The notes below the pieces were generated by a model. That model searched no databases. It was not told the origin of the DNA and was given only the letters and a program-made list of their open reading frames with translations. The translations under genes were made by a program, and so were the position numbers. Shown piece after piece: positions 19,440 to 62,191 of a DNA stretch of 64,000 nt (positions are counted from its first letter, which is position 1; every line of letters starts with the position of its first letter). Source of the DNA: Granulicella cerasi (lineage in GTDB: Bacteria; Acidobacteriota; Terriglobia; Terriglobales; Acidobacteriaceae); NCBI RefSeq assembly GCF_025685575.1, contig NZ_JAGSYD010000001.1:499852-563851 (forward strand). Reading direction: 5' to 3'.

Positions 19440-19623
19440 GGGTGCCCCAGGTCTCGATTTTTGAGACCTGGGAGAGCGAGAGTCATCGCGCGGCCTGTCC
19501 TCGTGGTCTCCGTGGAGTTCGCTGGAAACCCACGTCTCCAAGAATCGAGACGTGGGACCCCGGTGGAGGTCTCCGGTGGATGCTCTGGAAACCCAGGTCT
19601 CAGAATCGAGACCTGGGGCACCC
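19440..19623. repeat. 184-bp composite GGGTGCCCC repeat unit with inverted ends
   Basis: The left end begins GGGTGCCCC (19440-19448) and the right end finishes GGGGCACCC (19615-19623), extended to about 20 matching bases in inverted orientation (GGGTGCCCCAGGTCTCGATT). Each end is itself a hairpin: CCCAGGTCTC/GAGACCTGGG at 19446-19472 and 19592-19617. A third, different hairpin CCCACGTCTC/GAGACGTGGG lies at 19529-19556. The unit occupies most of the spacer before ispE. Confidence 0.85.
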
Positions 19624-19662: not shown

Positions 19663-20820
19663 ATGTCCACGCGCGTTCGTTCGTTTTCGAAGATCAATCT
19701 TGGCCTGCGGGTCGGGCCTCCGCAGGTGGGCACGGGCTTTCATGCACTACGCACCTGCTACCAGACGCTGGCCGCGTGCGACTTCATCACGGTGAGTGCG
19801 AAGGCGGCGAGCACGACGAAGATCACGCTCGCGGCAAACCACCCAGGCGTGCCCCGCACCGAGACCGGTGATGCGGAGAAGAACACGGCGTACCGCCTGG
19901 TGGCGCTGGCGTTGGAGTCGCTGGGTGTGACGGCGGAAGTTCACATCGAGCTCGACAAGCGGATGCCGGTGCAGGGCGGGCTCGGCGCGGGGTCTGCGAA
20001 CGCGGCCGCGGCGCTGATCGCGCTGGAGCGTGAGTTGGGGCAGAGCCTGAGCTGGGACGATCGGCTGCGGCTGGCGGCGGATGTCGGGTCGGATGTGCCG
20101 ATGTTCCTGGTCGGCGGCACGATGCTGGGCGTGAATCGCGGCGAAGAAGTGTATCCGCTGCCGGATCTGCCGGAGACGCCGTGTGTGCTGGCGATTCCGG
20201 ATGTGGGCGTGTCGACGAAGCTGGCATTCGAGGCCATAGACGAGGAGTACGCGAGGGCAGCAGGGGCGAGGGGCCAGGGCTCAGGGCGCAGGGCCCAGAA
20301 GGCGGGTTCCGCTGCGGCGCAAGATCTGGAGATTCCTCGGGAGACTGCAAGTGCTGGAAGCGCCGAGGCATCCCCTGAACCCTGGGCCCTGGAACCTGGA
20401 CCCTTGACTCCCAGCCCGCCTGTGGATAAACTAGAAAGGTTGAGCCACGCTCTGGCAGGGGCATTTGCGTACCCCGGCCGTTTAGAGCCTGGACTCTCCG
20501 GTATCGTCGGCGAAGCCGATGATCTGGCGGAGAACCCTCTTCTCACGCTTGTCCGCACCGGGATCGAGAACGACTTCGAAGAAGTAGCGTTTTCAATGCA
20601 TCCCTCCTTGCGTACAGTGAAGCGTGAATTGGCGGGCAGCGGCCCGGAGGCAGCGATATTCGCTGGTCTTTCGGGATCCGGCTCGGCTTTGTTTGGCTTG
20701 TATGCCAGCGAAGACGATGCGCTCAGGGCTCAACAACGTGTGCAGGCATCCGGCACGAAGGCAGTCGTCACGAAGACGCTGTCTCGCCACGGATATTGGC
20801 ATACGATGTTCGCAGAGTAG
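19663..20820 (+). CDS. ispE: 4-diphosphocytidyl-2-C-methyl-D-erythritol kinase
   Basis: This GHMP-family kinase of the non-mevalonate isoprenoid pathway phosphorylates CDP-methylerythritol. Motifs are KINLGLRVG at the N-terminus, the ATP loop PVQGGLGAGSANAAAAL near residue 105, DVGSDVPMFLVGG and the C-terminal GLSGSGSALFGLY. At 385 residues it is about 100 longer than E. coli IspE (283). Roughly 60 extra residues (about 200-260, RGQGSGRRAQKAG through EPGPLTPSPPVDK) come from an in-frame repeat copy. The ATG at 19663 is chosen because upstream sequence is repeat DNA. tRNA-Gln and prs follow. Confidence 0.9.
   Translation: MSTRVRSFSKINLGLRVGPPQVGTGFHALRTCYQTLAACDFITVSAKAASTTKITLAANHPGVPRTETGDAEKNTAYRLVALALESLGVTAEVHIELDKRMPVQGGLGAGSANAAAALIALERELGQSLSWDDRLRLAADVGSDVPMFLVGGTMLGVNRGEEVYPLPDLPETPCVLAIPDVGVSTKLAFEAIDEEYARAAGARGQGSGRRAQKAGSAAAQDLEIPRETASAGSAEASPEPWALEPGPLTPSPPVDKLERLSHALAGAFAYPGRLEPGLSGIVGEADDLAENPLLTLVRTGIENDFEEVAFSMHPSLRTVKRELAGSGPEAAIFAGLSGSGSALFGLYASEDDALRAQQRVQASGTKAVVTKTLSRHGYWHTMFAE
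20271..20410 (+). repeat. AGGGCCCAGGG-word inverted repeat inside ispE
   Basis: The left arm (20271-20300, GGGCCAGGGCTCAGGGCGCA then GGGCCCAGAA) and the right arm (20372-20410, CCTGAACCCTGGGCCCTGGA and on) are inverted copies separated by about 70 bp. The same arms and similar spacing occur between prs and rplY at 22333-22484. Here the whole element stays in frame and is translated. Confidence 0.8.
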
Positions 20821-22332: not shown

Positions 22333-22484
22333 TCAGGGTCCAGGGCTTAGGGCCCAGGGCTCAGAAAACAAAACGCCGGAGAGATTCGGCGTCAACTATG
22401 CGGTGAACTCCGCGAACGGATTGGAAGTAAGGAAGAGCTGGACACAGGCGTCTTCTGGACCCTGGGCCCTAAGCCCTGAACCCT
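22333..22484 (+). repeat. AGGGCCCAGGG-word inverted repeat between prs and rplY
   Basis: The left arm GTCCAGGGCTTAGGGCCCAG (from 22339) and the right arm CTGGGCCCTAAGCCCTG (within 22461-22479) form a stem of about 20 bp around an approximately 90-bp spacer. The arms match those inside ispE (20271-20410) and tgt (2086). This arrangement resembles a REPIN (paired inverted REP words). Confidence 0.85.
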
Positions 22485-22511
22485 CGCTTCTAAGCCCGAA
22501 AGGAAAATACG

Positions 22512-23171: not shown

Positions 23172-23177
23172 CGAATT

Positions 23178-23237
23178 AGCTCCTGGCTTCTAGCTCCTGG
23201 CTTCTAGCTAGAGGCCAGAAGCCAGGAGCTAGAAGCT
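23178..23237 (+). repeat. Long inverted repeat between rplY and pth
   Basis: The word AGCTCCTGGCTTCT occurs twice forward (from 23178) and then inverted (AGAAGCCAGGAGCTAGAAGC, 23218-23237). The arms can fold into a stem of about 20 bp (23187-23206 with 23218-23237). The only AGGAG close to the pth start is inside the right arm. Confidence 0.85.
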
Positions 23238-34649: not shown

Positions 34650-34769
34650 GGGTGCCCCACGTCTCGATTCTTGAGACGTGGGAGAGCGAGGATGCTGGCT
34701 GTCTGAATGTTTCGGCCTCCAGAGATCTCTCTGGAAACCCAGGTCTCAGAGGCGAGACCTGGGGCACCC
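34650..34769. repeat. 120-bp GGGTGCCCC repeat unit with inverted ends
   Basis: The left end GGGTGCCCC (34650-34658) runs into the hairpin CCCACGTCTC/GAGACGTGGG, and the right hairpin CCCAGGTCTC/GAGACCTGGG runs into GGGGCACCC (34761-34769). It has the same architecture and flanking words (GAGAGCGAG, CTCTGGAAA) as the unit at 19440, but lacks its middle hairpin. It lies between the asparaginase stop and the small membrane gene. Confidence 0.85.
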
Positions 34770-45766: not shown

Positions 45767-45817
45767 GGGTGCCCATAGCCAAGACCGGGTGCCCCATATC
45801 TGCGCAGCAGATGTGGG
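45767..45817. repeat. GGGTGCCCC repeat, TATCTGC stem variant
   Basis: Two direct copies of ACCGGGTGCCC (from 45764 and 45784) are followed by the hairpin CCCATATCTGC-GCA-GCAGATGTGGG at 45793-45817. The head is the same as at 19440 and 34650, but the stem sequence is unrelated to theirs. Confidence 0.8.
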
Positions 45818-45864: not shown

Positions 45865-48309
45865 TTAGTTCCGCAGTTCCACCACAGTCGCTCCCTGCCC
45901 GCCTTCGTTATAAGGAGGCTCGGTGATCGACGCCACATGCGGATGGTTCTTGAGGAAGTCCCGCAGCGTGCGCCGCAAAATCCCCATACCCACGCCGTGC
46001 ACCACGCGCACCCGCGGCAATCCCGCTAAGAACGCCTGCTCCACAAACCGATCGACCTCGCCTTCAGCCTCATCCGCCGTGCGGCCGATCACGTTGATCT
46101 CCGTCGTCATGTAGTCCGAGTCACTCGACGAGCTCTGCACATGCACGCCGCCGCCACGACGACGCACCGCATCGATCGGACGCTCGCGCACCGGCGTCAC
46201 CTCAAGCACATCGCTCATCGGCACACGCATCTTCATCGCGCCCACGTTCACTTCGAGCGTCTTCGCATCAATCACACGCGCCACTCGGCCTTCGCTGTTC
46301 AACGACTTCAACCGCACCAGATCGCCAGCCTTCGGTTCGCGCTTGTTGTCCTGCTTCTTCGCACTCGCAGGGGTAGGGTCCTTCGCCGCCACGGTCGACT
46401 GAAAACGCTCACCAAACTCGCGCTTCAGCCCCGCAATGCGCACCGCCGCATCGCGCGCAATCTTCTTCGCGACGGTCTTGTCGTCAATCGCCTTCACGGT
46501 GTCGCGAAGCTGACCTTCAAACTCCTCGATCAGCTTCTCGAGATCGCGGCGCATCTCGCGCGCATACGCCTGCATCTGCGCGCGCCCTTCCACCGCAAGG
46601 TGCGAGCGCTCGTTGTCGAGCTTGCGCTGCGTCTCCGCAAGCGTCTCGCGTTCCTGCGCGGCAAGGCCGAGCTGATTGTGCAACTCGTCAAGAAAGCGCG
46701 CAATGTCGGCCTGCTGCGTCGTACGCTGCGCTCGCGCCACCTCGACAATCGCGGGGTCCATGCCCAAACGCGCGGCGATGTTCAAACCCGCCGAAGCACC
46801 CGGCACGCCAAGCCGCAGCTCGTACGTTGGCGAGAGCGTCGCTTCATCAAATCCCACCGCTGCGTTGAACACGCCAGCCTCACCCGCGGCATACACTTTC
46901 AACGCCGTAAGGTGCGTGGTGATGAACGTCCACGTGTTGCGCGCGAGGAAGTGCTTCGCCACCGCAACTGCAAGCGCCGCGCCCTCTTCCGGATCAGTCG
47001 CCGAGCCAAGCTCATCCAGCAGCACGAGCGAACGATCATCCGCCACGCGCGAGATGCGGTCCACATTCACCACATGCGCGGAGAAGGTGGAGAGGTTCTG
47101 CTCAATCGACTGCGCATCGCCGATGTCCGCGTAAACAGCGGTGAAAAGCGGCAGCGTCGCGCGCATCGCCGGCACCGGCATACCTGCCTGCGCCATCAGC
47201 ACGAGCAGTCCACTCGTCTTCAGTGCCACCGTTTTACCGCCTGTATTCGGGCCGGAGATGATCATCTCGCGCGGCCCCGCAGGCAGCATGATGTCGAGCG
47301 GCGTGATGCGTCCATCGCTCTCGCGCAGACGCATCTCCAGCAAAGGATGCCGCGCCTGCTCCAACGCAAACTCGCCTTCAAAGCTCGGCCGCACGCACGC
47401 GAAATCTTCGGCAAAACGCGCCACCGCTTGATGCGCGTCCACCTGCGCCAACACCTCGGCGCCAAGCTGCAACGATGCAGCGTTCGTCGCCACGGCGCGC
47501 GTCATCATCACGAGAATGCGATGAATCTCCGCCTGCTCTTCATCGAGCAAACGCACGAGTTCGTTGTTGGCCTCAATCGTCTCCAGCGGCTCCACAAACA
47601 CCGTCTGCCCCGTGGAGCTCGAGCCATGCACGACGCCCTGCACTTTGCGCCGCGCTTCCACCTTCACAGGAATCACAAAGCGCTCACCGCGCACGGTGAT
47701 CAGCGCATCCTGCACGCTGCCGTCTTCGCTCAAGCGCCCCAGCGCGCGGCGCAACGTGTCCTCAATCGCACGATGCTGCCGCGCCATCTCGCGACGAATG
47801 CGTGCGAGGTCCGGCGACGCATCATCAGCCAGCGAACCATCCGGCTCAATCTTGCCCTGCAACGTGCGCAGCAATCCGCCAAGATCAAACTCCAGCAGCG
47901 GAGCCGACAACGCTTCAATCGCAGGCCACTTGCAGCGCACCGCATCCGGCGGCGACATCACCAGCTGCGTCCACTCAGCCACGCGCTCGGCGTGCGCCAA
48001 CACATCGAGCAACTCCGCAGCTTCCAACGCCGCGCCCTGAATGCGCGCCTTGTCCAGCAGGTTCTTCGGATCGATCAGTCCGCGAAAATTGAAGAGCGCG
48101 CCTGCAGTCACCAACGGACGCATCTCCGCTGTGCGCGTCTGCTGCGCGGCAATCCACTCACGCTCCGCCGATGGCTCCAACGCCAGCACGCGCGCCTTGC
48201 CCAGCGGCGAACGCGCACCGCTGCTCACGCGCTCGCGCAGCAACTCCCACTGCAGCGCCGCGCCGCCGCGTTCAGACAAGCTCATCGGTACTTCGGACCC
48301 TACGTTCAT
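45865..48309 (-). CDS. mutS2: Endonuclease MutS2
   Basis: This 814-residue protein has the MutS core without the mismatch-binding domain: lever/clamp helices, the Walker A GPNTGGKT near residue 355, Walker B LVLLDELGSATDPEEG and the ABC signature region STFSAH, then a long coiled coil and a C-terminal Smr domain (residues about 735-814, with HGVGMGILRRTLRDFL). MutS2 proteins act on branched DNA and limit recombination, and some split collided ribosomes. The ATG at 48309 has GGAGAG nearby; 48285 is an alternative start. Confidence 0.94.
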   Translation of the reverse strand: MNVGSEVPMSLSERGGAALQWELLRERVSSGARSPLGKARVLALEPSAEREWIAAQQTRTAEMRPLVTAGALFNFRGLIDPKNLLDKARIQGAALEAAELLDVLAHAERVAEWTQLVMSPPDAVRCKWPAIEALSAPLLEFDLGGLLRTLQGKIEPDGSLADDASPDLARIRREMARQHRAIEDTLRRALGRLSEDGSVQDALITVRGERFVIPVKVEARRKVQGVVHGSSSTGQTVFVEPLETIEANNELVRLLDEEQAEIHRILVMMTRAVATNAASLQLGAEVLAQVDAHQAVARFAEDFACVRPSFEGEFALEQARHPLLEMRLRESDGRITPLDIMLPAGPREMIISGPNTGGKTVALKTSGLLVLMAQAGMPVPAMRATLPLFTAVYADIGDAQSIEQNLSTFSAHVVNVDRISRVADDRSLVLLDELGSATDPEEGAALAVAVAKHFLARNTWTFITTHLTALKVYAAGEAGVFNAAVGFDEATLSPTYELRLGVPGASAGLNIAARLGMDPAIVEVARAQRTTQQADIARFLDELHNQLGLAAQERETLAETQRKLDNERSHLAVEGRAQMQAYAREMRRDLEKLIEEFEGQLRDTVKAIDDKTVAKKIARDAAVRIAGLKREFGERFQSTVAAKDPTPASAKKQDNKREPKAGDLVRLKSLNSEGRVARVIDAKTLEVNVGAMKMRVPMSDVLEVTPVRERPIDAVRRRGGGVHVQSSSSDSDYMTTEINVIGRTADEAEGEVDRFVEQAFLAGLPRVRVVHGVGMGILRRTLRDFLKNHPHVASITEPPYNEGGQGATVVELRN

Positions 48310-48420
48310 CTCTCCATCTTAAGCCGCGCGCAGATTTTTCTCCGTACGCACCGCTTTCGCCGTAGCATCGGAGCCAGTTCTCAGGACGACAATCTACGCA
48401 TCTCCAAAAGAGAGATACCC

Positions 48421-49140
48421 ATGCCCACACCCCTTGCTCCACCGGTGATGAAGCGTGCCGACGACGTCTTCTTCACCACTCTTTCCGTGATCATGCTCGC
48501 CTTCGTCGTCGTTGGATTCGCCCCCAGCTACTTTCTCCGCGGAGCCGTCTTCGCCACGCTCCCCAGCCTTCTCGTCCACCTCCATGGCGCAGCGTTTTCG
48601 TCGTGGATCATCCTCTTCGTCGTGCAGTCGAGCCTGGTCGCAACCGGCAACATCCGTCTGCATCGCAAACTTGGCTACGCGGGCGCTGTGCTCGCGGCGC
48701 TGATGGTCATCTTCGGCATCACCGCCACCATCGGTGCACTACGTCGTGGCGCGGAGCTGCCTTCGTTCTTCACGCCCCCCTCGTTTCTCGTCACGAACAC
48801 GCTCGGTATCCTCATCTTCGGCGCGTACGTTGGCGTGGCTGTTTGGAAGCGAAACAATCGCAAGGTGCACAAGCGCCTGATGCTCATCGCGAACACGATG
48901 ATCCTTCCGCCCGCGCTCTCGCGCATCGAGTTCGTGCAGACGCACTTCTACATGATCCCGGTGATCTGCCTTGGCACGGTCGTGCTGCTCTTCGTCTACG
49001 ACCTCTTCACCTGGCGCAAGCCGCTGCTCGTTACAGTGCTCGGCGGCTTACTCTACGTCGCGGCCAACCCGCTGATGGACGCCGTGCAGCACACCGCCTT
49101 CGCCCAACGCGCGGTGGCGTGGGCTCAGCATCATCCATGA
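48421..49140 (+). CDS. Polytopic membrane protein of unknown function
   Basis: This 239-residue protein has about seven transmembrane segments, starting at residues 16-40 (FFTTLSVIMLAFVVVGF) and ending near residue 220. Repeated HxxH-like pairs occur at LLVHLHGAAFSSW and near RLHRKLGY and KVHKRLML, which resemble heme- or metal-associated membrane proteins such as the DUF2306-type group, but this is only similarity of pattern. A GAGAG site precedes the ATG. hemB follows 35 bp downstream and may be co-transcribed. Confidence 0.75.
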   Translation: MPTPLAPPVMKRADDVFFTTLSVIMLAFVVVGFAPSYFLRGAVFATLPSLLVHLHGAAFSSWIILFVVQSSLVATGNIRLHRKLGYAGAVLAALMVIFGITATIGALRRGAELPSFFTPPSFLVTNTLGILIFGAYVGVAVWKRNNRKVHKRLMLIANTMILPPALSRIEFVQTHFYMIPVICLGTVVLLFVYDLFTWRKPLLVTVLGGLLYVAANPLMDAVQHTAFAQRAVAWAQHHP

Positions 49141-49175
49141 GGCTGAGGATGAGGCCGCGCGCGTAAACTAAGAGC

Positions 49176-50162
49176 ATGAGCTTTCCCGCCACACGCCTTC
49201 GTCGTCTGCGTTCTTCTGCCGCTATGCGCTCGCTCGTGCGCGAGACGCGGCTCGAACGCTCCGCGCTGATCTACCCGCTCTTCATCTGCGAGGGCGAAGG
49301 CGTGCGTCGCGAAGTCAGCTCCATGCCCGGCGTCTTCAACCTCTCCATCGACGAGGCCGTGAAGGAAGCCGAGCAGTGCGCTGAGCTCGGACTCGGCGGC
49401 CTGCTGCTCTTCGGCATCCCGAGCGAGAAGGACGAGCAAGCCTCCGGCGCCTACGCAAACGACGGCATCGTGCAGCGTGCGATTCGCGCCATCAAGGCCA
49501 ACCGCTCCACGCGCGAACTGCTGTTGATCGCCGACGTTTGCCTCTGCGAGTACACCGCCAACGGCCACTGCGGCCTGATCGAGCAACACCACGACCACTA
49601 CGAAATCGCCAACGACGCCTCGCTGCCGTTGATCGCAAAGACCGCCGCCTCACTCGCTCTCGCGGGCGCAGATATCGTCGCACCGAGCGACATGATGGAC
49701 GGCCGCGTCGCCGCCATCCGCCGCGCGCTCGACGAAGCCGGCAAGCCGAACACGCCCATCATGAGCTACGCCAGCAAGTTCGCCTCTGCCTTCTACGGGC
49801 CCTTCCGCGAAGCCGCTGACTCCGCACCGCAGTTCGGTGATCGCCGCTCGTATCAGATGGATGGCGCCAACCGCCGCGAAGCCCTGCGCGAGATCGCCGA
49901 GGACATCGAAGAGGGCGCGGACATGCTGCTCATGAAGCCCGCCATGCCGTACCTCGACATCGTCCGCGAAGCCCGCGACCGATTCGATCTGCCGATGGGC
50001 GCCTACCAGGTCTCGGGTGAGTACGCGATGCTGCAAGCCGCCTTCGCCAAAGGCTGGCTTGAGCGCGAACGCACCATCGTCGAGTCGCTACTCGCCATGC
50101 GCCGCGCCGGCGCGGACTTCATCGTGACCTACTTCGCCAAGGAAGCGGCACCTCTGCTCTAG
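49176..50162 (+). CDS. hemB: Delta-aminolevulinic acid dehydratase (porphobilinogen synthase)
   Basis: This 328-residue enzyme joins two 5-aminolevulinates to porphobilinogen in heme synthesis. It has the Cys-rich zinc site [14 protein letters not shown] (three Cys, so zinc-dependent), the Schiff-base Lys motifs [16 protein letters not shown] and [13 protein letters not shown], and the C-terminal [11 protein letters not shown]. Length is standard. Its product pathway supplies heme to the heme oxygenase encoded 4 kb away, although no regulatory link is visible. Confidence 0.96.
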
Positions 50163-50171
50163 CTTGTCCGT

Positions 50172-50693
50172 TTAGCTTTCGTCGTATTCGCGGAACAGCT
50201 CTTCCAGGCTCACCGCGATTGCAGTGTTCGCCACACGCAGCACTCCATCGGCAGGCTGCTCGAAGCCTCGTGCTGATGCGTGATAGCCAATCCGCTTCCA
50301 CGGATCGACCACCCAGACGTCGCGAACGCCGATGGACGCGTAGTCTTCAACGCGATTCTGCACTTCGCGCAGACGATCATCCGCCGACAGCACTTCAATG
50401 CAAAGCAGCGGCGCGAAGGTGATGATGTCATCCTTGGGATCATCCGCGCGAAGAACACAAATATCCGGGATGCGATAACGGCTCGAAGTGATCTGCACGC
50501 GCTGCTCAGGCAGAGGGCGAACATGCCACTTCTTGCGCTGATCGCGAAACATTCCATACAGAATGCCTTGAATCAAAGCGTGCGGCTGCTCGCCTACGTT
50601 TCTCTCCTTCAACTCGCCGTCAATGTAGTCAACGTCGGGCCGGTAGGTGGTCCTCAGATATTCCTGTACCGAGACGAGAACGGCAGATGCCAT
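50172..50693 (-). CDS. Uma2-family putative endonuclease
   Basis: This 173-residue protein has the Uma2 (DUF820) layout: VQEYLRTTYRPDVDYIDGEL, EQPHALIQGIL, RIPDICVLRADDP and LCIEVLSADDRLREVQNRVEDYASIGVRDVWVVDP. The PD...ExL...K-type pattern is a PD-(D/E)XK nuclease fold, although the usual Lys is hard to assign. Members are widespread in cyanobacteria and other environmental bacteria, with unknown roles. It is convergent with hemB, with 9 bp between stops. Confidence 0.85.
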   Translation of the reverse strand: MASAVLVSVQEYLRTTYRPDVDYIDGELKERNVGEQPHALIQGILYGMFRDQRKKWHVRPLPEQRVQITSSRYRIPDICVLRADDPKDDIITFAPLLCIEVLSADDRLREVQNRVEDYASIGVRDVWVVDPWKRIGYHASARGFEQPADGVLRVANTAIAVSLEELFREYDES

Positions 50694-50743
50694 AGCGCAA
50701 ACCCTCGTGGAGCCATGCTACTCCGAAATCCTTCAAAACGCCG

Positions 50744-51716
50744 CTAAATCAAGCTCTCACGCAACAACCGCTTCCACCCCGGCACATCCAGCTCCCACAC
50801 CACTTTCACCGGTCTCGCCAACTCCCGCGCCTCGCCCCACACCTTCGCGTTGCGCGCGTCACCGCTTACGCCCAGCACATCCACCACGCTCATGCCACGC
50901 GTGAGTTCGCTCGACGCTTCGATCTGCACATAGTGCTCGCTCGCCCGCAACGCCAACTCAGGCTCGAGCAACAACGCCATCGCCGTCGGGTCCGGCAGCG
51001 AGATCCCATGCTCGCCCGTCTGCGTAAAGTACGCCGCCTTGCCCGTGCTGTTGCACTCAATCGCAAACCGCGCGAGCGGCGTATCCAGCGCCTCCACCTC
51101 AGCGATATCCGCCTCGTTCAGCACCGCCTCATGCCGCGAAAGCTGCCAACCCACCAGCTCCAACTTCAGCTTCGAAAGAAACACACGCCGCGCGGCTTCC
51201 GGGTCCACCCACAGGTTGAACTCCGCCGCCGGAGTCACGTTGCCCTCGCACGCCGGCGCGCCGCCCATCACCAGGCAGCGGCTCACCCACGCCGGCAAAC
51301 GCGGCTCGCGCTCCAACGCCATCGCCAAGTTCGTCAGCGGCCCCAGCGTGATGATCTCCAACCCAGGATGTTCGCGTGCTGCCGCGATGATGGCGTCCAC
51401 AGCAGGCATCGCCTCCGGCTTCTTCGCCACCGGAGCCATGCCGTGATCGCCCAGCCCATCCATGCCGTGAAACCACGTCGCCGGCTCCAGCGGCCGCTGC
51501 AGCGGAGCCTCCGCGCCCACGTACACCGGCACGTCCTTGCCGCAGCTCCACGGTGTAGCACGCGTTGCTCGCGCCCTGCGTCACCGGCACATTGCCCGCG
51601 ACCACGGTGATCGCCACCACCTCCACCAGCGGCGACTGCAACGCCATCATCAACGCCACCGCGTCGTCCGAGGCCGTGTCGGTGTCGATCAAAACTTTGC
51701 GAGGATCAGTCTTCAT
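50744..51716 (-). pseudogene. Inosine-uridine nucleoside hydrolase, frameshifted
   Basis: The N-terminal part ([20 protein letters not shown], with the DxDxxxDD calcium site, then [17 protein letters not shown]) is in one frame and the rest ([66 protein letters not shown]) is in another. The break is near 51542, where one or two bases seem lost between the codons for EL and GKD. Otherwise the family is complete (about 320 residues). It is a recent pseudogene, a programmed shift or a sequence error. Confidence 0.85.
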
Positions 51717-51724
51717 CAACCTTC

Positions 51725-52060
51725 TCACCCCTCAAAGATCGGCACGATGCGATCAATCACTTCCTGCAGAATCGCCTCCGGCAATGACTCGACTCGTTTG
51801 CCAGCACGCGCCTTCATGTCGAGCACGCGAAGCTGGTGACACAGCACGACACCCTGCGTCTTCAAACCAAGCCCACTCAGCGAAACCGTAAACCCAGCCT
51901 CACGCGCGAAGCTTCCGCCTTGCGTGATCGGCGCTACCACAGGATGCCCCGTCAGATCATTGAACGGCTTCTGCGATACCACCAGCACATGTCGCTTGCC
52001 TGCCTGCTCGCGTCCCTTCGTCGGGTCCAGGTCCACGACGTAGATATCGCCCTGTTTCAC
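51725..52060 (-). CDS. mazF: MazF/PemK-type mRNA interferase toxin
   Basis: This 111-residue toxin starts (GTG) [20 protein letters not shown], then [34 protein letters not shown] and the end [20 protein letters not shown]. This is the PemK/MazF fold, which cuts mRNA at short sequences. The start overlaps the antitoxin stop (GTGA), giving translational coupling, and uses the AAGGAG within the end of mazE. Confidence 0.92.
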
Positions 52061-52305
52061 AGCAGCTCCTTGCCAACGGCCGGCGCATCCACCCATTCGC
52101 GGCTGCCGCGCTTCGCTTTGCGATCGCCCTGCTTCACCAACTCCGCCAACGAGTACCGGCGAGGCGTCTTGCGAATCACAATCGCGTCGCCCTTCACCGT
52201 GAGCGTCACGTCCATGTTGGCCTTCAATTCGGCCAATTCCATCAGCGCAGGCGGAATTGCCACCATCACCGATCCACCCACTTTTCTCAGGTTCGCCGTC
52301 AGCAT
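52057..52305 (-). CDS. mazE: MazE-type AbrB-fold antitoxin
   Basis: This 82-residue protein has the SpoVT/AbrB DNA-binding fold (ANLRKVGGSVMVAIPPALMELAEL), followed by VTLTVKGDAIVIRKTPRR and a flexible acidic/basic C-terminus that should bind the toxin. GGAGGAG lies 6 bases before the ATG at 52305. A palindrome covering the -10 element just upstream fits autoregulation by the MazEF complex. Confidence 0.9.
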   Translation of the reverse strand: MLTANLRKVGGSVMVAIPPALMELAELKANMDVTLTVKGDAIVIRKTPRRYSLAELVKQGDRKAKRGSREWVDAPAVGKELL

Positions 52306-52324
52306 CGCAAACTCCTCCATGCAG

Positions 52325-52341
52325 ATTATACAAACGTATAA
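52325..52341 (-). promoter_or_regulatory. mazEF promoter -10 inside an inverted-repeat operator
   Basis: TTATAC-GTTT-GTATAA is a perfect inverted repeat (arms at 52326-52331 and 52336-52341). On the minus strand its end forms TATAAT (52330 to 52325), about 20 bases before mazE. Binding of MazE there would block RNA polymerase. No clear -35 is seen. Confidence 0.65.
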
Positions 52342-52788
52342 CTACGGCATCCCACGAAACATCGCCGCCTCGGCCTTGCGCCGCGCCACCAGCCCTGGCA
52401 ACACCTTGCCACCCGCACGCACCCACGCTCCGAACCCCAGCGCCGCGCTGCGTACATCGCCTCGGTTCAACGCCAGCAGCAGCGACGACCGCTCGAAGCT
52501 CCCACGCCCTACGTTGTAGCAAAAACTCACCAGCGCATCGAACTGACACTGCACGATTGCCACCGTCACCACCTTGTTCACGAAGCGCACCGTCGCGGCG
52601 ACATCCGCCCGCAGCAGCGCCTCGGCCTCGAACTCGCTTACGTGCCGCCCGGCCCTCACGTCCGCGCCCGTATGCCCGTACCCAATCGTCCAAACGCCCG
52701 CGGCATCCTGATACGCGACCTCGCGTAACCCCTCGCAACTGCGAATGAGCTCCAGACCCGCGGCGCTCAACCCAAACTCTTGCAACAT
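52342..52788 (-). CDS. GH24 lysozyme (phage endolysin type)
   Basis: This 148-residue protein has the T4-type/P21 endolysin active-site pattern: LELIRSCEGLREVAYQDAAG (catalytic Glu), VWTIGYGHTGAD (Thr of the E-8aa-D/C-5aa-T triad) and CQFDALVSFCYNVGRGSFERSSLL. It cleaves the glycan strands of peptidoglycan. There is no signal peptide, so as in phages it would need a holin. GGGAGGG precedes the ATG at 52788. It lies between mazEF and lpdA with no phage genes adjacent, although a phage block on the same strand begins 5 kb away. Confidence 0.9.
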   Translation of the reverse strand: MLQEFGLSAAGLELIRSCEGLREVAYQDAAGVWTIGYGHTGADVRAGRHVSEFEAEALLRADVAATVRFVNKVVTVAIVQCQFDALVSFCYNVGRGSFERSSLLLALNRGDVRSAALGFGAWVRAGGKVLPGLVARRKAEAAMFRGMP

Positions 52789-52803
52789 CTTTCCCTCCCA
52801 CGC

Positions 52804-52840
52804 AAAAAAGCCCGGGAGCAGCACATGGCTGCCCCCGGGC
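52804..52840 (-). terminator. Intrinsic terminator just upstream of the lysozyme gene
   Basis: On the minus strand GCCCGGG (7 bp) plus GCAGC (5 bp) fold around a 5-base loop and are followed by six T, ending 15 bases before the lysozyme start. No minus-strand gene lies upstream, so this would end a short leader transcript or is a leftover from another gene order. Confidence 0.75.
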
Positions 52841-52956
52841 GAATGAATCGAAAACCGTATCCGGACATCGAATACCGTTCAGAAGTGTTGTGCGAAAGGC
52901 GTAAACTTACGGCGTCCCTTCGCTGGCGACTCTTACTTTTTACGGAGCGAACTCCC

Positions 52957-54381
52957 TTGGCTGAAACCACGACTTACGACATCACTGTCATCGGCGGCGG
53001 ACCCGCCGGATACACCTGCGCCATCCGCGCCGCGCAACTCGGCCTCAAGGTCGCCCTCGTTGAAAAGACGCCCATGCTCGGCGGCACCTGCCTCCACGTC
53101 GGCTGCATCCCTACCAAGGCCATGCTCTTCTCGGCCGAGGTCTGGGACCACCTGAAGCACGCCGAGAGCTACGGCATCGACAACGTCACCGCCCCCAAGC
53201 TCAACTGGCAGAACGTGCTCACCCGTAAGAACGGCGTCATCAGCACCCACACCAAGGGCCTCGACTACCTGATGAAGAAGAACAAGATCACCGTCGTCCG
53301 CGGACACGGTCGTCTTGCTGGCCCGGCCAAGGCTGGCATCCTCACCGTCGACGTGACCGCAGCGGACAACAAGGTCTCGCAGGTGCTCTCGAAGAAGGTC
53401 GTCATCGCCACCGGTTCGGACGCGCGCATGCTCCCCGGCTACCAGGCCGACGACACCATCCTCACCAACATCGAGATCCTCTCGCTCGCCAGCTTCCCGA
53501 AGTCGCTCGTCGTCATCGGTTCCGGCGCGGTCGGCGTCGAGTTCGCTTCCATCTTCAACAGCTTCGGCGCGGAGGTCTCCATCATCGAAGCCCTGCCGCG
53601 CATCGTACCCGTCGAAGATGAAGACGTCTCCAAGGAACTCACCCGCCAGTTCAAGAAGCGCAAGATCGAAGTGAACACCGGCTGCAAGGTCGAAAAGATC
53701 GAAAAGGTGAAGGGCGGCGCCAAGGTCACCTTCACTGACGCTTCCGGCAAGTCCGTCGTCAAGGAAGCCGAGAAGGTCCTCGTCGCCGTCGGCCGCGCAC
53801 CGCGCACCGCCGATGTCGGCCTCGACAAGACCAACATCCAGCTCGACCGCGGCTTCATCCCCACCAACGAGTGGATGGAGACCTCTGAGCCGGGCGTCTT
53901 TGCCGTCGGCGACATCGTCGCTGGCCTGCCGCAGCTCGCCCACGTCGGCGCCATGGAAGGCATCGTCGTCGCCTCCAAGGCTGCCGGCAAGTACGCTCGT
54001 GCCGTCCGCAAGGACCGCGTCCCGGGCTGCACCTACTGCGACCCGCAGATCGGCTCCGTCGGCCTCACCGAAGCTCAGGCTAAGGAAAAGGGCTACCAGG
54101 TCAAGGTCGGCAAGTTCCCGTTCGTCGGCAACTCGAAGGCCACGATCCTCGACGCGCACGACGGTTTCGTCAAGGTAGTATCCGACGCGAAGTACGGCGA
54201 GATCCTCGGCGTCCACATCATCGGTCCGCAGGCCACCGAGCTCATCAGCGAGTGCGTCACCGCCATCGAGCTCGAAGCCACCGTCGAAGAGATGATGTTC
54301 ACCATCCACGCCCACCCCACGCTCTACGAGGCGCTGCTCGACGGCTTCTCCGCAGTCGAAGGCATGGCGATCAACGTCTAA
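52957..54381 (+). CDS. lpdA: Dihydrolipoyl dehydrogenase (E3)
   Basis: This 474-residue flavoprotein has the FAD motif TVIGGGPAGYTCAIRAAQLG, the redox disulfide GGTCLHVGCIPTKAML (C-x4-C), the NAD motif VVIGSGAVGVEFASIF, the second FAD site FAVGDIVAGLPQLAH and the C-terminal catalytic pair in HAHPTLYEALLD (His, Glu). It reoxidises lipoyl groups of E2. The start is TTG at 52957 with ACGGAGC upstream. lipB and an E2 gene follow within 2 kb, so it probably works with that E2. Confidence 0.94.
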   Translation: MAETTTYDITVIGGGPAGYTCAIRAAQLGLKVALVEKTPMLGGTCLHVGCIPTKAMLFSAEVWDHLKHAESYGIDNVTAPKLNWQNVLTRKNGVISTHTKGLDYLMKKNKITVVRGHGRLAGPAKAGILTVDVTAADNKVSQVLSKKVVIATGSDARMLPGYQADDTILTNIEILSLASFPKSLVVIGSGAVGVEFASIFNSFGAEVSIIEALPRIVPVEDEDVSKELTRQFKKRKIEVNTGCKVEKIEKVKGGAKVTFTDASGKSVVKEAEKVLVAVGRAPRTADVGLDKTNIQLDRGFIPTNEWMETSEPGVFAVGDIVAGLPQLAHVGAMEGIVVASKAAGKYARAVRKDRVPGCTYCDPQIGSVGLTEAQAKEKGYQVKVGKFPFVGNSKATILDAHDGFVKVVSDAKYGEILGVHIIGPQATELISECVTAIELEATVEEMMFTIHAHPTLYEALLDGFSAVEGMAINV

Positions 54382-54402
54382 ACCTAGTACTTAAGTCACA
54401 AC

Positions 54403-54438
54403 AATCGGCATCTCCCGACCCTCCGGGAGCTGCCGATT
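54403..54438 (+). terminator. Intrinsic terminator after lpdA
   Basis: A 15-bp stem AATCGGCATCTCCCG/CGGGAGCTGCCGATT (one mismatch pair) is followed by TCCATTT. It ends the lpdA transcript, so the next gene needs its own promoter in the 230-bp spacer, in which no clear promoter stands out. Confidence 0.85.
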
Positions 54439-54670
54439 TCCATTTGAGTTTCACCAGAGACGTGTCAAAACGGGAATTCTGTTACCACTGCTGCACATCT
54501 CGACATTTCTTTACATTCAACCGCTTGTGGCGCCAATTTCATCCCACTAAAGTAACTACAAACACCACAGCAGCGCCTGTTCCGACGACCATCCTGCGTT
54601 TTACGTCTTTTGCGGGCTGTGGTGTTTGCTCTTTCTTCTCCCCGCGCGCCTCAAGTACGCTTGAAGCCAC

Positions 54671-55303
54671 ATGAGAGTCTTCTTCACCCGCCACGCGCAG
54701 AGCGCGGCCAATGTCGGCCTCAGCTCCGACGACTTCGCGCTCATCCCCCTTACTGAGTACGGCCACGCCCAGGCCGCCGCGCTCGCAGCGCATTGGGACG
54801 TCGTCCCCGACCTCATCATCGTGTCGCCTTTCTTCCGCACACGCCAGACAGCGCAGCCCACACTCGACCGCTTCGCCCATGTCCCGGTTGAGTACTGGCC
54901 GGTACACGAGTTCACGAACCTTGAGCCGTCACGCTGGAACGGCAGCCAGCCGAGCGAGCGCCTACCCTTCGTGCAGCAATATTGGCAGCAATGCGACCCC
55001 GCCTACTGCGACGGTCCGGGCGCCGAAAGTTTTTCGCAGCTCCTCGGCCGCGCCCAGGCAGCTCTTGATCGCCTCAGTCAGCTTCCGCCGGACACCGAGG
55101 TCCTCCTCTTTACGCATGGCTTCTTCCTCAACGCGATCCGCTCGCTCCTGCGTGCTCCTGCGGCCTCACACGCCGAACACATGCTCGGCTTCGTCCCCGC
55201 CTTCCGCCAGCAGACCATCGCCAACGCCGACCGCCTCGAGATGACCTTCACCGCAAATGCAGGCTGGCGGATCGTCGAACACCACGCCGGCTTTATCCTG
55301 TAA
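54671..55303 (+). CDS. Histidine phosphatase family protein (phosphoglycerate mutase-like)
   Basis: This 210-residue protein has the catalytic FFTRHAQSAANVG (RHx motif with His9), LTEYGHAQAAALA, SPFFRTRQTAQPTL (second Arg) and the late His in LLFTHGFFLNAI. These are the phosphohistidine-handling residues of the branch-2-like histidine phosphatases. The substrate is unknown. It lies 6 bp before lipB, so they are one operon. Confidence 0.87.
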   Translation: MRVFFTRHAQSAANVGLSSDDFALIPLTEYGHAQAAALAAHWDVVPDLIIVSPFFRTRQTAQPTLDRFAHVPVEYWPVHEFTNLEPSRWNGSQPSERLPFVQQYWQQCDPAYCDGPGAESFSQLLGRAQAALDRLSQLPPDTEVLLFTHGFFLNAIRSLLRAPAASHAEHMLGFVPAFRQQTIANADRLEMTFTANAGWRIVEHHAGFIL

Positions 55304-55309
55304 AGAGCG

Positions 55310-56050
<741 letters not shown>

Positions 56051-56169
56051 ACCGCACACGCGTTCGCTAACCGCGCACCTGTCGCTGACGCACGCAACCT
56101 CATCGCCGTATAATCCACAGTTGCGCGGACACTACCGCACCTATTCGCAACACCCCACGGAGAAGCTAG

Positions 56170-57786
56170 ATGCCGACCGACGTAGTCATGCCCCAGATGG
56201 GCGAATCCATCACCGAAGGAACCATCACCAAGTGGCTCAAGAAGCCGGGCGACACTGTCCAGCGCGACGAGCCGCTCTTCGAGATTTCGACCGACAAGGT
56301 TGACGCAGAGATCCCGTCGCCGATCGCCGGTACGCTCGGCGAGATCAAGGTCCAGGAAGGCACCACCGTCGGTATCAACACCGTCGTCTGCACCGTGGAA
56401 GAAGGCGGCTCGGCCGCTGCTGCCGCCGCTCCCAAGGAAGACACCGTCACCCCCGCCGCTGACGCCACTGCCGCGCGCGATGAAGCCGTGAACGCTCCCG
56501 CAGGCGCAGGCACTGACGTGCTCATGCCGCAGATGGGCGAGTCGATCACCGAAGGCACCATCACCAAGTGGCTCAAGAAGGTCGGCGACACCGTCCAGCG
56601 CGACGAGCCCATCTTCGAAATCTCCACCGACAAGGTCGACGCAGAAATCCCGTCGCCCGTCGCCGGTACCCTCACCGAGATCAAGGTGCAGGAAGGCGCG
56701 ACCGTCACCGTGAACAGCATCGTGGCCGTCATCGGCGGCGCTGCTGGTGCCGCTGCTCCCAAGGCCGCCACGCCGCAGGGCGCGCAGTCGGCCTCGCCGC
56801 ACACCAAGGAAACCGCTGCACCGGCCGCTGCCGCACCGGCCGCTTCGGCTTCCGCTGGCGAAACCCCGCGCTCCTCGCCGCTCGTCCGCAAGATCGCCTC
56901 GGACAACAACGTGGACCTCACACAGGTTCCGGGCACCGGCGCTTCCGGCCGCATCACCAAGAACGACATCACCTCGCACCTCGAAGGCGGCGCCAAGCCC
57001 GCAGCAGCTCCGGCTGCAGCAGCCGCACCGGCTGCTCCCAAGCCTGCCGCACCGGCAGCGACGCCGCTCTCGGCCCCCACGCCGGGCGAGCTCGTGCCCA
57101 TGACGAAGATGCGCAGCATCATCGCCAAGCGCATGGTCGAGTCCAAGCAGACCAACGCTCACGTCCACACCGTCTTCAAGGTCGACATGACGCGCATCGT
57201 AAAGCTCCGCGAGAAGGAGAAGAACAAGTACGAGCAGCGCAACGGCGCCAAGCTCACGTACATGCCCTTCATCACCCGCGCAGCCATCCAGGCGCTCAAG
57301 AAGCATCCGATCGTCAACGCCAGCACCCAGGGCGACGCGATCCTCTACAACAAGAACATCAACATCGGCATCGCCGTCGCGCTCGAGTGGGGCCTCATCG
57401 TTCCGGTCATCAAGCAGACCGAAGAGCGTAACTTCCTCGGCATCACGCGCGCCATCGTCGACCTCGCCGACCGCGCTCGCAACAAGAAGCTCGCTCCGGA
57501 CGAAGTCGCTGGCGGCACCTTCACACTGACCAACGCCGGCATCTTCGGCGAGCAGTTCGGCACGCCGATCATTCCGATGCCTCAGTCCGCCATCCTCGGC
57601 ATCGGCGGCCTCTTCAAGGAGCCCGCCGTTATCACCGACAAGGAAGGCAACGAGTCCATCGCGATCCGCTCCATCCAGCGCTTCACGCTCGGCTTCGATC
57701 ACCGCATCATCGACGGCTCCGACGCAGGCAAGTTCATGGGCGACTTCAAGGCCTACCTCGAGAACTGGTCCGAAGACATCGGCTAA
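56170..57786 (+). CDS. 2-oxo acid dehydrogenase E2 component with two lipoyl domains
   Basis: This 538-residue E2 has two nearly identical lipoyl domains (residues 1-78 and about 115-190) with lipoyl lysines K43 and K155 in EISTDKVDAE, Ala/Pro-rich linkers, a peripheral-subunit-binding domain (about 232-275, SSPLVRKIASDNN) and a catalytic acyltransferase domain ending FDHRIIDGSDAGKFM (His511, Asp515). It forms the core of a dehydrogenase complex: 2-oxoglutarate, pyruvate or branched-chain. The sequence is closest in style to the SucB/BCDH group; no E1 gene is in the window. Confidence 0.93.
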   Translation: MPTDVVMPQMGESITEGTITKWLKKPGDTVQRDEPLFEISTDKVDAEIPSPIAGTLGEIKVQEGTTVGINTVVCTVEEGGSAAAAAAPKEDTVTPAADATAARDEAVNAPAGAGTDVLMPQMGESITEGTITKWLKKVGDTVQRDEPIFEISTDKVDAEIPSPVAGTLTEIKVQEGATVTVNSIVAVIGGAAGAAAPKAATPQGAQSASPHTKETAAPAAAAPAASASAGETPRSSPLVRKIASDNNVDLTQVPGTGASGRITKNDITSHLEGGAKPAAAPAAAAAPAAPKPAAPAATPLSAPTPGELVPMTKMRSIIAKRMVESKQTNAHVHTVFKVDMTRIVKLREKEKNKYEQRNGAKLTYMPFITRAAIQALKKHPIVNASTQGDAILYNKNINIGIAVALEWGLIVPVIKQTEERNFLGITRAIVDLADRARNKKLAPDEVAGGTFTLTNAGIFGEQFGTPIIPMPQSAILGIGGLFKEPAVITDKEGNESIAIRSIQRFTLGFDHRIIDGSDAGKFMGDFKAYLENWSEDIG

Positions 57787-57802
57787 TCGGCCTCAACACA
57801 AA

Positions 57803-57831
57803 AACGGCGGAGCCCACAAGGCTCCGCCGTT
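57803..57831. terminator. Terminator after the E2 gene
   Basis: A 12-bp perfect stem AACGGCGGAGCC/GGCTCCGCCGTT with a CACAA loop, followed by CTGCTTTT on the plus strand and by TTTGTG on the minus strand. It separates the E2 gene from the convergent phage-type block. Confidence 0.9.
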
Positions 57832-57865
57832 CTGCTTTTCCTCACTGACAAACTGCAAGAACCAT

Positions 57866-58201
57866 CTACAGCGAAATCCCCAGCGCCTTCAAATCAGCAA
57901 CCAGCACCGCATCACCCGCCTTCGCATCCGCGATCAGCTTCTGAATATCCGCGAGCACCGCTTCATCCAGCGTCAGCGAAATCCCCTTCGCCTCAAACGC
58001 CGCGCCCGCATCCTTCACCAGCTTGATCGCATCCGCGCCAATCGTCAGCAACACATTGCGCGTCTCCGCACTCGTCACCAGCAGCCACGCCTGCTTGGCC
58101 CAGCGTAGGTCCGCCGCCAGCTTCGCATAGAAGCTCTTCACATCATTCCCAATCGTCTGCAACACCGTCTCCACGGCTTGTTTCGTTACGTTCACGCTCA
58201 T
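57866..58201 (-). CDS. Small helical protein at the end of the phage block
   Basis: This 111-residue protein is Ala/Leu/Asp-rich and almost entirely helical by composition (AKLAADLRWAKQAWLLVTSA; DEAVLADIQKLIADAKAGDA). There is no signal or membrane segment. A GGAGATAAAGAAGA leader provides the ribosome site. It is the last gene of the minus-strand phage block and 6 bp after the next one. The family is not recognised. Confidence 0.65.
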   Translation of the reverse strand: MSVNVTKQAVETVLQTIGNDVKSFYAKLAADLRWAKQAWLLVTSAETRNVLLTIGADAIKLVKDAGAAFEAKGISLTLDEAVLADIQKLIADAKAGDAVLVADLKALGISL

Positions 58202-58207
58202 TCTTCT

Positions 58208-58429
58208 TTATCTCCTCTCCACAAACCACGCCACAGCCAAATGCGCGAGCGTCAACACGCCGCCCCACGCACTCACAACACCCTTCCATCGCTGCACATC
58301 GCGCTCATGCTCCTCCACGCGACCTTCCAGCGCCTGCAGCCTTCCCGGCTGCCCTATGCCCAGCAACTGCTGCATCTGCGCCTTCAGCACACTCAACTCA
58401 CTCAACACCTGCTGCTCAAACTCACCCAT
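58208..58429 (-). CDS. Small coiled-coil membrane protein, XhlA/holin-like
   Basis: This 73-residue frame starts MGEFEQQVLSELSVLKAQMQ, has a coiled-coil stretch (residues 1-50, with heptad-like spacing through LQALEGRVEEHERDVQRW) and a C-terminal hydrophobic helix (VVSAWGGVLTLAHLAVAWFV) ending in ERR. This layout is that of XhlA-type lysis-associated phage proteins. The start at 58429 has only a weak ribosome site. A holin partner would make sense for the GH24 lysozyme at 52342, but they are not adjacent. Confidence 0.6.
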   Translation of the reverse strand: MGEFEQQVLSELSVLKAQMQQLLGIGQPGRLQALEGRVEEHERDVQRWKGVVSAWGGVLTLAHLAVAWFVERR

Positions 58430-58524
58430 CCCACAACCCCACTCACAACCCGCAACCCACAACTCAAAACTCGAATCAAACCCAGCCACGACTCCTCGTG
58501 AAAGCTGCCACTGAAAGCTGATCC

Positions 58525-60600: not shown

Positions 60601-60664
60601 CTTCACTCCCTGACACACTGAACCCTGACTCGCTGACATACTGGATGGACCATCCGCACTCACG

Positions 60665-61564
60665 CTAACGGCTCACCACACTCCGCCAACAAACAGCCGT
60701 CTCACCATCCAACGGATCCACCACCGGCAACGCACGAAACGCCCCACGCAAACGCATCGCCTCATAGCCACCCGCATCATCAGCAACGCTCTCCGCAATA
60801 CCACTCGTCGCCTGCAGCCGCGGATAGTACCAACTCACACGCTCACCCTGCGGCCCATCGGCAACAAACAACGCCGACCACTCCTGGAGGAACGTCGATC
60901 CCTCTCGATCGCAGAACCCCACCACCGCACTCGCCTTCATCGCATCGGTTGGCGCACCCGCAATCAGCGGCGTCTCCAACGTCACCGCTCCATCTTTCAC
61001 CGCAGCAACCCGCGCGACATTCAGCGACACACGCCGCACATACTCCGCATCGGTCAACGCCGTCTTCACATACGCCGCATCCACACCCGCACCCACATAG
61101 CCGGTGGCATCCGCATAGTCCACATCCACGACAATAAGATCACCCACCGCAAACGTCGCCGCATCCACCGCGCTCATCTGCAACACCGTCGCCGTGGATC
61201 CACTCAACAACGCCACCGCTTCGCCACGCAGCAAGTTCAACTGCTGCGTCCCCGCGCTCAACGCAAGCTGCAACTTGCCCCAGCTCTCAAACGCCATCGA
61301 CACACCTGCATCCACCTCACTGCGCACTTGTATCGCGGTCGTCAACGGCGCACCACTCTTCACCGCAACCACCCTCGTCTCACAGCTGCGAGCAAACCCA
61401 CGCACCCAACCCAGATCAACCCACGGTGCCGCCGGCGCATCCACATCGAAGCCCACCATCTGCGCCGCATCCCACAACGCCGTCGCACCCCCACTCCGAT
61501 TCCTCGGCGCGAAGAACGCACGCACCCGCTGATAGCGAGGAGCCATCACATCCACCACACTCAT
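60665..61564 (-). CDS. Phage structural protein, probably tail-related
   Basis: This 299-residue protein, starting MSVVDVMAPRYQRVRAFFAP, is beta-rich with repeated hydrophobic-polar alternation (DLIVVDVDYADATGYVG, AAVKDGAVTLETPLIAGA) and YYPRLQATSGIAES near the end. I do not recognise the family, but it lies between the tail-terminator-like gene (4-bp ATGA overlap) and the hub-like gene, so a tail or adaptor role is likely. Confidence 0.6.
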   Translation of the reverse strand: MSVVDVMAPRYQRVRAFFAPRNRSGGATALWDAAQMVGFDVDAPAAPWVDLGWVRGFARSCETRVVAVKSGAPLTTAIQVRSEVDAGVSMAFESWGKLQLALSAGTQQLNLLRGEAVALLSGSTATVLQMSAVDAATFAVGDLIVVDVDYADATGYVGAGVDAAYVKTALTDAEYVRRVSLNVARVAAVKDGAVTLETPLIAGAPTDAMKASAVVGFCDREGSTFLQEWSALFVADGPQGERVSWYYPRLQATSGIAESVADDAGGYEAMRLRGAFRALPVVDPLDGETAVCWRSVVSR

Positions 61565-62055
61565 CGCTCACCCGCTTCCTCAAACGCCATCACATCTACC
61601 GTGGCCACACGCGACACAACATCATCAGCAACCTTCACTTCACCGAACGTCACCGCACTCCACCAGATCTTCGTGCCCAACGTCGTCGCACCTGCAGCCG
61701 CATAGCTCTGCTTCACCGCATCGCGCGGCTCCGCATTCACCATCTGCAGCAACTCCGCATCCATCGCGGCCAACACACGCCCACGATCCATCCCCTGCCG
61801 CTCGCTCGTGCCCGCCGTCGCATACGCAATCTCACAACGCATCGCCACACGCGGCAACGCACCTCGCGCATCGACGCTCACACCCACCCAACGCAAGCGA
61901 AAGCAATCCAGCGGCAACGCCACTTCGCTCAACTCGTTTTCCTCCACCACAACCGCAGGCCTCACCGACCCACGCACCACCGCAGTGCGCAACGGATTCA
62001 CACTCGCCAGCCGCGCCCGCAGCACCTCATAGAACGTGTCCTTCGCGTTCTGCAT
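61561..62055 (-). CDS. Phage tail-terminator/minor tail-like protein
   Basis: This 164-residue protein has an N-terminal helix (DTFYEVLRARLASVNPLRTA), a beta strand set (RPAVVVEENELSEVALPLDC, MRCEIAYATAGTSERQGMDR) and a helix with GRVLAAMDAELLQMVN, similar in outline to tail-terminator proteins (gpU-like). Identification is by size, layout and position between connector and tail genes. Its stop overlaps the next start. Confidence 0.55.
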   Translation of the reverse strand: MQNAKDTFYEVLRARLASVNPLRTAVVRGSVRPAVVVEENELSEVALPLDCFRLRWVGVSVDARGALPRVAMRCEIAYATAGTSERQGMDRGRVLAAMDAELLQMVNAEPRDAVKQSYAAAGATTLGTKIWWSAVTFGEVKVADDVVSRVATVDVMAFEEAGER

Positions 62056-62120
62056 ATCGCTCCTTCAACCGTTCGTCTTCGTTGTCATCGCAAGGAGAAT
62101 CGGCGCACACCAGCATCGTT

Positions 62121-62160
62121 GGGTGCCCCATCCGTACGCGGCTTCACGCGGACGGGTGGG
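62121..62160. repeat. GGGTGCCCC repeat inside the phage block
   Basis: GGGTGCCCCA is followed by an imperfect hairpin CCCATCCGTACGCG-GCTTCA-CGCGGACGGGTGGG (the arms pair with one mismatch and one G-T). It lies in the only large gap (62056-62191) of the otherwise tightly packed phage genes and has the same head as the repeats at 19440, 34650 and 45787. Confidence 0.75.
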
Positions 62161-62191
62161 CGGCCACGAATCTCCGCAAGCTCTTCTCGCG

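Follow-up and report, generated by a model that had tools for sequence, protein, structure and literature searches.

What kind of element ends in inverted hairpins, occurs in two lengths in one region and seems to be built from interchangeable parts, and what has spread it? The 64,000-nucleotide stretch of Granulicella cerasi DNA analysed here (the window, part of contig C1) poses this question through two units of 184 and 120 bp. An earlier note had described their inverted hairpin ends and shared sub-terminal words, and the sequence at both places agrees with that description to the base. Both units end in an inverted 5' tag and hairpin, GGGTGCCCCA-NGTCTC...GAGAC-NTGGG, and the words GAGAGCGAG and CTCTGGAAA are present in both (Table 1). 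With up to three mismatches allowed, the 20-mer GGGTGCCCCAGGTCTCGATT matched the window four times, exactly at the units' four ends, and gave no match in 100 dinucleotide shuffles. Each of these ends comprises an unpaired 6-nt 5' tag, GGGTGC, an 11-bp stem and a loop of 4-5 nt (-11.3 to -12.1 kcal/mol), and the whole units with five flanking bases per side have folding z-scores of -9.3 (184-bp) and -7.0 (120-bp) relative to shuffles. The extra internal hairpin module that the note had seen in the longer unit is present, with a 10-bp stem; because its tag is degenerate and its sub-terminal sequence, TTTCCAG...CGGAGACC, resembles the right-hand half (63 bp apart, 65% alike over 57 nt), it can be read as a tandem copy of that right-hand (A) half. 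An Rfam search of the window at the gathering threshold returned tRNA only and nothing for the units, which rules out a known Rfam family as their identity.

Table 1. Hairpin units and solo REPs of the window (positions counted from the first base of the window).
Feature	Position	Strand
184-bp composite unit, order B - A' - A on the + strand (B-arm, tandem A-half with degenerate tag, A-arm)	19440..19623	.
B-arm REP of the 184-bp unit: GGGTGC tag and hairpin, then AGAGCGAG	19440..19472	+
Internal A'-type hairpin of the 184-bp unit: degenerate tag GGGGTCCCACGTCTC, then TTTCCAG	19529..19563	-
A-arm REP of the 184-bp unit: GGGTGC tag and hairpin, then TTTCCAGAG	19592..19623	-
120-bp REPIN, inverted doublet of B-arm and A-arm	34650..34769	.
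B-arm REP of the 120-bp REPIN	34650..34682	+
A-arm REP of the 120-bp REPIN	34738..34769	-
Solo REP with the units' GGGTGC tag and another stem (class 3, CATATCTG...CAGATGTGGG)	45787..45817	+
Solo REP with GGGTGC tag and class 2 stem, that of the second RAYT (contig C5)	62121..62160	+

The 4,081,283-base genome contains the 16-base end GGGTGCCCCANGTCTC 84 times (43 on the plus and 41 on the minus strand; none for a reversed-pattern control), so that the defined ends and many copies proposed by the note are real, and matches to the palindromic stem CCCANGTCTC-N3..12-GAGACNTGGG number 84 on each strand genome-wide. When two mismatches were allowed in the 16-mer, the stretches around all 84 places yielded 121 tags, 110 of them with a full hairpin. 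Under a slightly laxer stem rule, 113 arms could be sorted by the sequence that follows the stem into 73 A-arms (TTTGCA or TTTCCA), 27 B-arms (AGAGCG) and 13 others; one of the 84 places, C1:457735, lies too close to the end of its stretch and enters only the counts that follow these two. Just outside the tag, CACGAAC precedes A-arms and ACGTC, weakly, part of the B-arms. Arms of all stem classes around the 84 places, apart from 'other' stems without a known follow-up sequence, formed 94 groups, and since 42 of these are lone class-1 A-arms, the doublet is not the sole surviving form. The other groups include 13 of kind A-B1, six A-B3, four of A with an unclassed B stem and three A-C2, the remainder being rarer, and 22 of the 30 facing two-arm groups have preferred spacings, 12 spanning 118-122 bp and 10 spanning 100-111 bp. 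Three-arm units measure 164-184 bp and are of two sorts: A-C2-B (306055, 499091 and 1091835, and by eye 424313 and 1046567, whose middle arm is decayed), with the stem of the second RAYT in the middle hairpin, and A-A-B (470215, and by eye 519291, which is window position 19440, and 376343, its middle decayed); the four read by eye are tallied within the 13 A-B1. At C1:838854 a run of four A-halves is followed by one B. The tag GGGTGC is common to at least three stem classes, and class 1 is joined with class 2 or class 3 inside single units. As a separate observation, C1:440289-442306 holds two B/A arm pairs, back to back and separated by 1.9 kb, whose flanks resemble each other and which may have arisen by local duplication.

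Hairpins with an unpaired 5' tag, in high copy and intergenic, that form inverted doublets at preferred spacing and higher-order mosaics are the hallmarks of REPINs and BIMEs, and the genome also holds a cognate RAYT flanked by the same REPs. The Pfam family Y1_Tnp (PF01797) has four matches in the genome. RAYT1 (C1:280482-280985), a Y1_Tnp gene of 168 aa with a HUH motif and no stop, lies on the units' contig about 219 kb away, between inverted hairpins within 25 bp of both gene ends (GGGTGCCCCAGGTCTCGCTTCTGAGACCTGGGTTTGCAGG on one side, its inverted counterpart opposite) whose tag and stem are those of the units, the stem identical and the loop different. Its score against the NCBIfam model for REP-associated tyrosine transposases, NF047646, is 109 bits (cut-off 80), and its sole PDB match up to E 0.1 is 4er8, the TnpA-REP of E. 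coli (E 2.6e-14), with the HUH and YI-x-x-NPV regions aligned. We therefore regard the units, with high confidence, as REPINs/BIMEs, that is, non-autonomous mini-elements of REP hairpins, probably mobilised by a RAYT with matching hairpins. The 120-bp unit is a REPIN, an inverted REP doublet; the 184-bp unit is one too, but repeats its A half in tandem and forms a BIME-type mosaic. Thus the note was right that the units are assembled from repeatable parts, which is the known BIME idea, and its reading as a miniature non-autonomous element holds, the element belonging to a new REPIN/BIME family of Acidobacteria and not to a separate class; its view that the structure goes beyond simple REP hairpins fails, since the parts are REP hairpins and an intact RAYT is flanked by the same tag and stem. 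Because the unpaired tag of the units and of the RAYT1 ends is GGGTGC, we do not file them in the GTAG- or CGTC-tagged REP super-families.

The same tag recurs around other RAYTs. The second RAYT of this genome, RAYT2 on C5, has flanking hairpins with a GGGTGC tag and a different stem. In seven of the nine best relatives in named records (L082-L090, from Acidobacteriaceae and one Sulfotelmatobacter), the RAYT stands between inverted hairpins that begin with GGGTGCC[C/T]C[A/G], in which the tag is the same or has one mismatch and the stems are various; around L088 the hairpin pair is in the same orientation, and around L089, with 110 bp of upstream sequence examined, no pair was found. To judge from these sequences, the tag is kept while the stems change. 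Two further features were seen in passing: at L033:1335-1398, before the RAYT's upstream REP, stand two 32-bp direct repeats (88% alike) with tag and half stem but no closing half, half-REPs in tandem, and the RAYT relatives in G003, G008, G026, G010 and G023 contain one to three internal stops and are decayed copies or assembly errors.

Each REP is a 6-nt single-stranded 5' tag, GGGTGC, with an 11-bp hairpin; an A-arm and a B-arm with unlike sub-terminal sequences, set in inversion, give the 120-bp unit, and an A-half in tandem the 184-bp unit. In the mechanism that we propose, the HUH/Tyr nuclease of RAYT1 would recognise tag and hairpin on single-stranded DNA, cut at or near the tag and copy or move the doublet, or the doublet with an extra half, into spacers without target duplication. 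On the likeness of its flanking hairpins to the units' ends, RAYT1 has probably spread them.

On the putative mobilisation of the units by a RAYT, the data are their presence and absence between species. In G006, by the matches obtained the closest of 27 same-genus genomes, the 16-mer count is 0, and in the 400 kb searched neither the 16-mer nor the exact tag GGGTGCCCCA was found. Across collinear spacers of up to 2 kb, those with a tag (n=23) are longer here by a median of 190 bp and those without (n=77) by 9 bp (one-sided MWU p 4e-6), which bears out the absence from a relative's orthologous spacers that the note had envisaged; two of the 23 are shorter here, that of the 120-bp unit at 34650 (-659 bp) and one near 276 kb (263 bp). 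For the class 2 solo REP of the window, the orthologous spacer in G006 is 130 bp shorter and without the REP. Of the 120 tag positions tallied, with some sites entering twice, a single one falls inside a block aligned to G006. Empty-site alignments of 11 of the 23 spacers, read by eye, gave the cleanest picture of an insertion at 470 kb, most others being too diverged for exact ends. More widely, an even sample of 299 genomes of the class, this one included, contains the full hairpin in 36, of which 33 are among the 74 of the window's family and three among the 225 others (G165, G198, G234), a patchy spread; neither the lack of further copies in the genome nor the identical presence in all relatives by which the note would have been refuted was observed. 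Some genomes have ends but no close full-length RAYT (G027, 27 ends; G007, 13; G001, 12; at best 24-32% identity or a short fragment), and G006 has a 53%-identical RAYT yet no such ends. RAYT presence and REP number thus do not track each other simply across the genus, which makes it necessary to assume that in some genomes the gene was lost or its specificity changed.

Could the palindromes instead serve the host, as transcription terminators, mRNA stabilisers or nucleoid/gyrase sites, and have spread by ordinary recombination? The hairpins are strong, and A-arm loci lie in convergent (13), co-directional (25) and divergent (3 of 41) spacers, a distribution compatible with such roles in raw counts from rough ORF calls. 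We nevertheless consider this origin very unlikely: it does not sit well with the preferred unit lengths and arm grammar, with a RAYT gene that bears the same ends, with the absence of the units from a relative that has the same genes, or with the Rfam result for the window. The host may have put the hairpins to use later. Least plausible of all is a classical MITE, with terminal inverted repeats, a DDE transposase and target-site duplications, which the inverted ends, small size and absence of copies from the relative might suggest, but which is ruled out by the lack of the target-site duplication that the note had wanted checked (0 of 37 units with at least 3 bp at exact ends; shuffled pairing 1.4), quite apart from unit ends that are each themselves a hairpin with an unpaired tag and a gene with these ends that is a Y1/HUH RAYT. 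Direct repeats of at least 4 bp within 3 bp of the unit ends numbered 1, against 1.1 for shuffled pairing. Such a lack of target duplication is as expected for Y1 single-strand transposition.

Within the genome, the REPIN copies are unevenly placed. Merging the 84 places within 400 bp gave 64 loci, 31 of which fall within C1:190-535 kb, a region that makes up 8.5% of the genome. The richest 300-kb window holds 28 loci, against an expected maximum of 10.2 under uniform placement (p <=2e-4), and a scan without the RAYT locus finds 28 loci in 320 kb (p 5e-5). The dense region contains RAYT1 (280 kb) and dnaA (450.7-452.1 kb), near which no DnaA-box cluster was found with the consensus used; oriC was placed by the gene order dnaA / ribonuclease P gene / yidC alone, with rpmH read by eye. 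From the density, multiplication would appear to be strongest around the RAYT and the dnaA region. The dense region might instead reflect mere tolerance of repeats, or rearrangement via the hairpins, and so say nothing about where copies arose, a reading that we think possible though rather doubtful. In its favour, the region is scrambled on a local scale when compared with G006 (34 breaks), with many breaks at REPs on first look. This apparent association of synteny breakpoints with REPs, strong-looking in REP-centred stretches, was not significant once the whole 225-572 kb stretch was scored: 11 of 34 breaks have REPs, as do 25 of the 116 gaps that are collinear (Fisher p 0.25, or 0.07 with gaps limited to 1 kb). 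The stem classes also differ, 27 of 48 GG/CC loci lying in C1:190-535 kb as against 2 of 14 AT-only loci (CATGTCTC; p 0.007) and 2 of 12 class-2 loci (p 0.02; RAYT2 flanks left out), although the bounds were set after the data were seen, which the scan statistic allows for and these comparisons do not. That only GG/CC loci are in excess speaks against a merely tolerant region.

The orientation of the copies follows GC skew. Of 85 A-arm loci in this genome, not counting the RAYT flanks, 61 have their A-arm on the strand whose local GC skew is negative (skew taken over +-10 kb and truncated at stretch ends; p 7e-5, MWU p 4e-4), and 56 to 61 of the 85 agree across five skew window sizes. A circular-shift control on a continuous stretch was weaker (one-sided p 0.03-0.06, two-sided 0.06-0.10), and a runs test of orientation on C1 gave p 0.06. 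When net gene strand was entered as a covariate (n=41), the p value was 0.005 for skew and 0.29 for gene strand, the two correlating at 0.58; distant skew (4-20 kb) beside near skew gave p 0.03, and near beside distant p 0.12 (n=40). Three relatives show the same direction (G186 p 3e-5, G273 p 0.001, G007 p 0.012), with skew sampled at 20 points each and A- and B-arms not told apart, but these genomes were picked after runs of equal orientation had been noticed and so not blind. Pooled, 46 of 60 sites are concordant by interpolation and 47 of 60 by nearest sample; singly, the sign test is significant only for G186 (23 of 28, excluding a site on a different contig and a palindromic double match), the others giving 14 of 21 (G273) and 9 of 11 (G007). 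Runs tests on six contig sets ranged from p 0.0015 to 1.0, and from 0.015 to 1.0 after thinning (G134:C1, 0.46), with sites listed for five of nine genomes (none for G294, G258, G255 and G249; G134 in part, its C2 and C3 left out).

Insertions of IS200/IS605 track the lagging-strand template. We tentatively suggest, as a possibility that the data favour less than its converse, that REPINs enter in one strand orientation set by replication, with the A-arm on the C-rich strand (negative skew) and the hairpins likewise in three relatives, and that recent copies accumulate close to the RAYT and the origin. The skew-following orientation fits single-strand, replication-linked insertion without proving it, and the dnaA-based test does not support it: by dnaA-defined replichore, A-arm orientation in this genome was not significant, with 24 of 40 within C1:190-600 kb (p 0.27), 23 of 35 within 216-535 kb (p 0.09) and 34 of 59 across C1 (p 0.30), and an orientation switch that seemed to lie near 445 kb was a post hoc impression. 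Target composition is a rival cause of the strand bias. If true, entry set by replication would count as in vivo evidence for a spread of REPs by RAYTs via single-stranded DNA at forks. In the literature searched, which included parts of PMC3116915, PMC6006769 and PMC8266576, we found no report of a REP strand bias, and we make no claim of its absence in print; PMC6006769 cites Gomez et al. 2014 on transposable element orientation. Separately, at about 48000-64000 of the window (C1:548-588 kb) GC skew falls to -0.27 and -0.21 in two 20-kb bins without marked change in G+C, and the part of this low-skew zone up to C1:572 kb is collinear with G006.

The window contains other repeats as well. A second family of AGGGTCCAGGGCTCAGGGCCCAGGG-type words, partly in inverted pairs, occurs at 2084-2119, 20268-20418 and 22334-22498 (the pair at 22335/22450 has arms of 35 nt, 89% complementary), and similar CCCTAAACCCTGGGCCC stretches lie near C1:424.5 kb and between dnaA and yidC. 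Inverted repeats TAGCTCCTGGCTTCTAGC.../...GCCAGAAGCCAGGAGCTA (85-96% complementary, loop 3-5 nt) are found at 23177-23236, and a 14-bp tandem repeat of TCAGTAAGACCAGC-like units at 455-504.

Among the closest known systems, REPINs of Pseudomonas fluorescens SBW25, as described in PMC3116915, are likewise inverted REP doublets with a spacer, extragenic and RAYT-linked, with commonest REP spacings of 71 and 110 bp and the doublet proposed as the replicative unit; the present family differs in its GGGTGC tag, other stems, unequal arms (A and B), many lone A-arms and a dense region in place of random spread. BIMEs of enterobacteria and Stenotrophomonas, according to PMC2817692, are also REP mosaics, alternating or tandem, with hybrid units that combine REPs of two RAYTs and, in some genomes, RAYT-proximal accumulation, which is in print there for three marine gammaproteobacteria and Thauera; here phylum and sequence are other, three-arm units reach ~180 bp and the region ~320 kb, against at most ~200 kb there. 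RAYT1 resembles the E. coli RAYT / TnpA-REP (PDB 4er8) and the REPtron in being a Y1 HUH transposase relative between inverted REPs, but its tag is GGGTGC and not GTAG, and its cleavage is predicted. Nearer in phylum, PMC3733652 describes TIRtrons/TIRYTs, which include an Acidobacteria group: tyrosine transposases of T. saanensis, K. versatilis, A. capsulatum and G. mallensis with flanking inverted repeats, one Koribacter repeat being a genomic family. RAYT1 shares the flanking inverted repeats, and is set apart by motif description, since the GGGGWSAS common to some of those repeats does not fit GGGGCACC.

The window units are therefore ordinary in kind and newly described, a new acidobacterial REPIN/BIME family with its RAYT. 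The family adds an unusual GGGTGC tag and swappable stems, which helps to ask what RAYTs recognise. The spread of REPs is called poorly understood in PMC8266576, and density near the RAYT and dnaA, together with skew-linked strand bias, allows replication-linked spread to be tested cheaply on closed genomes.
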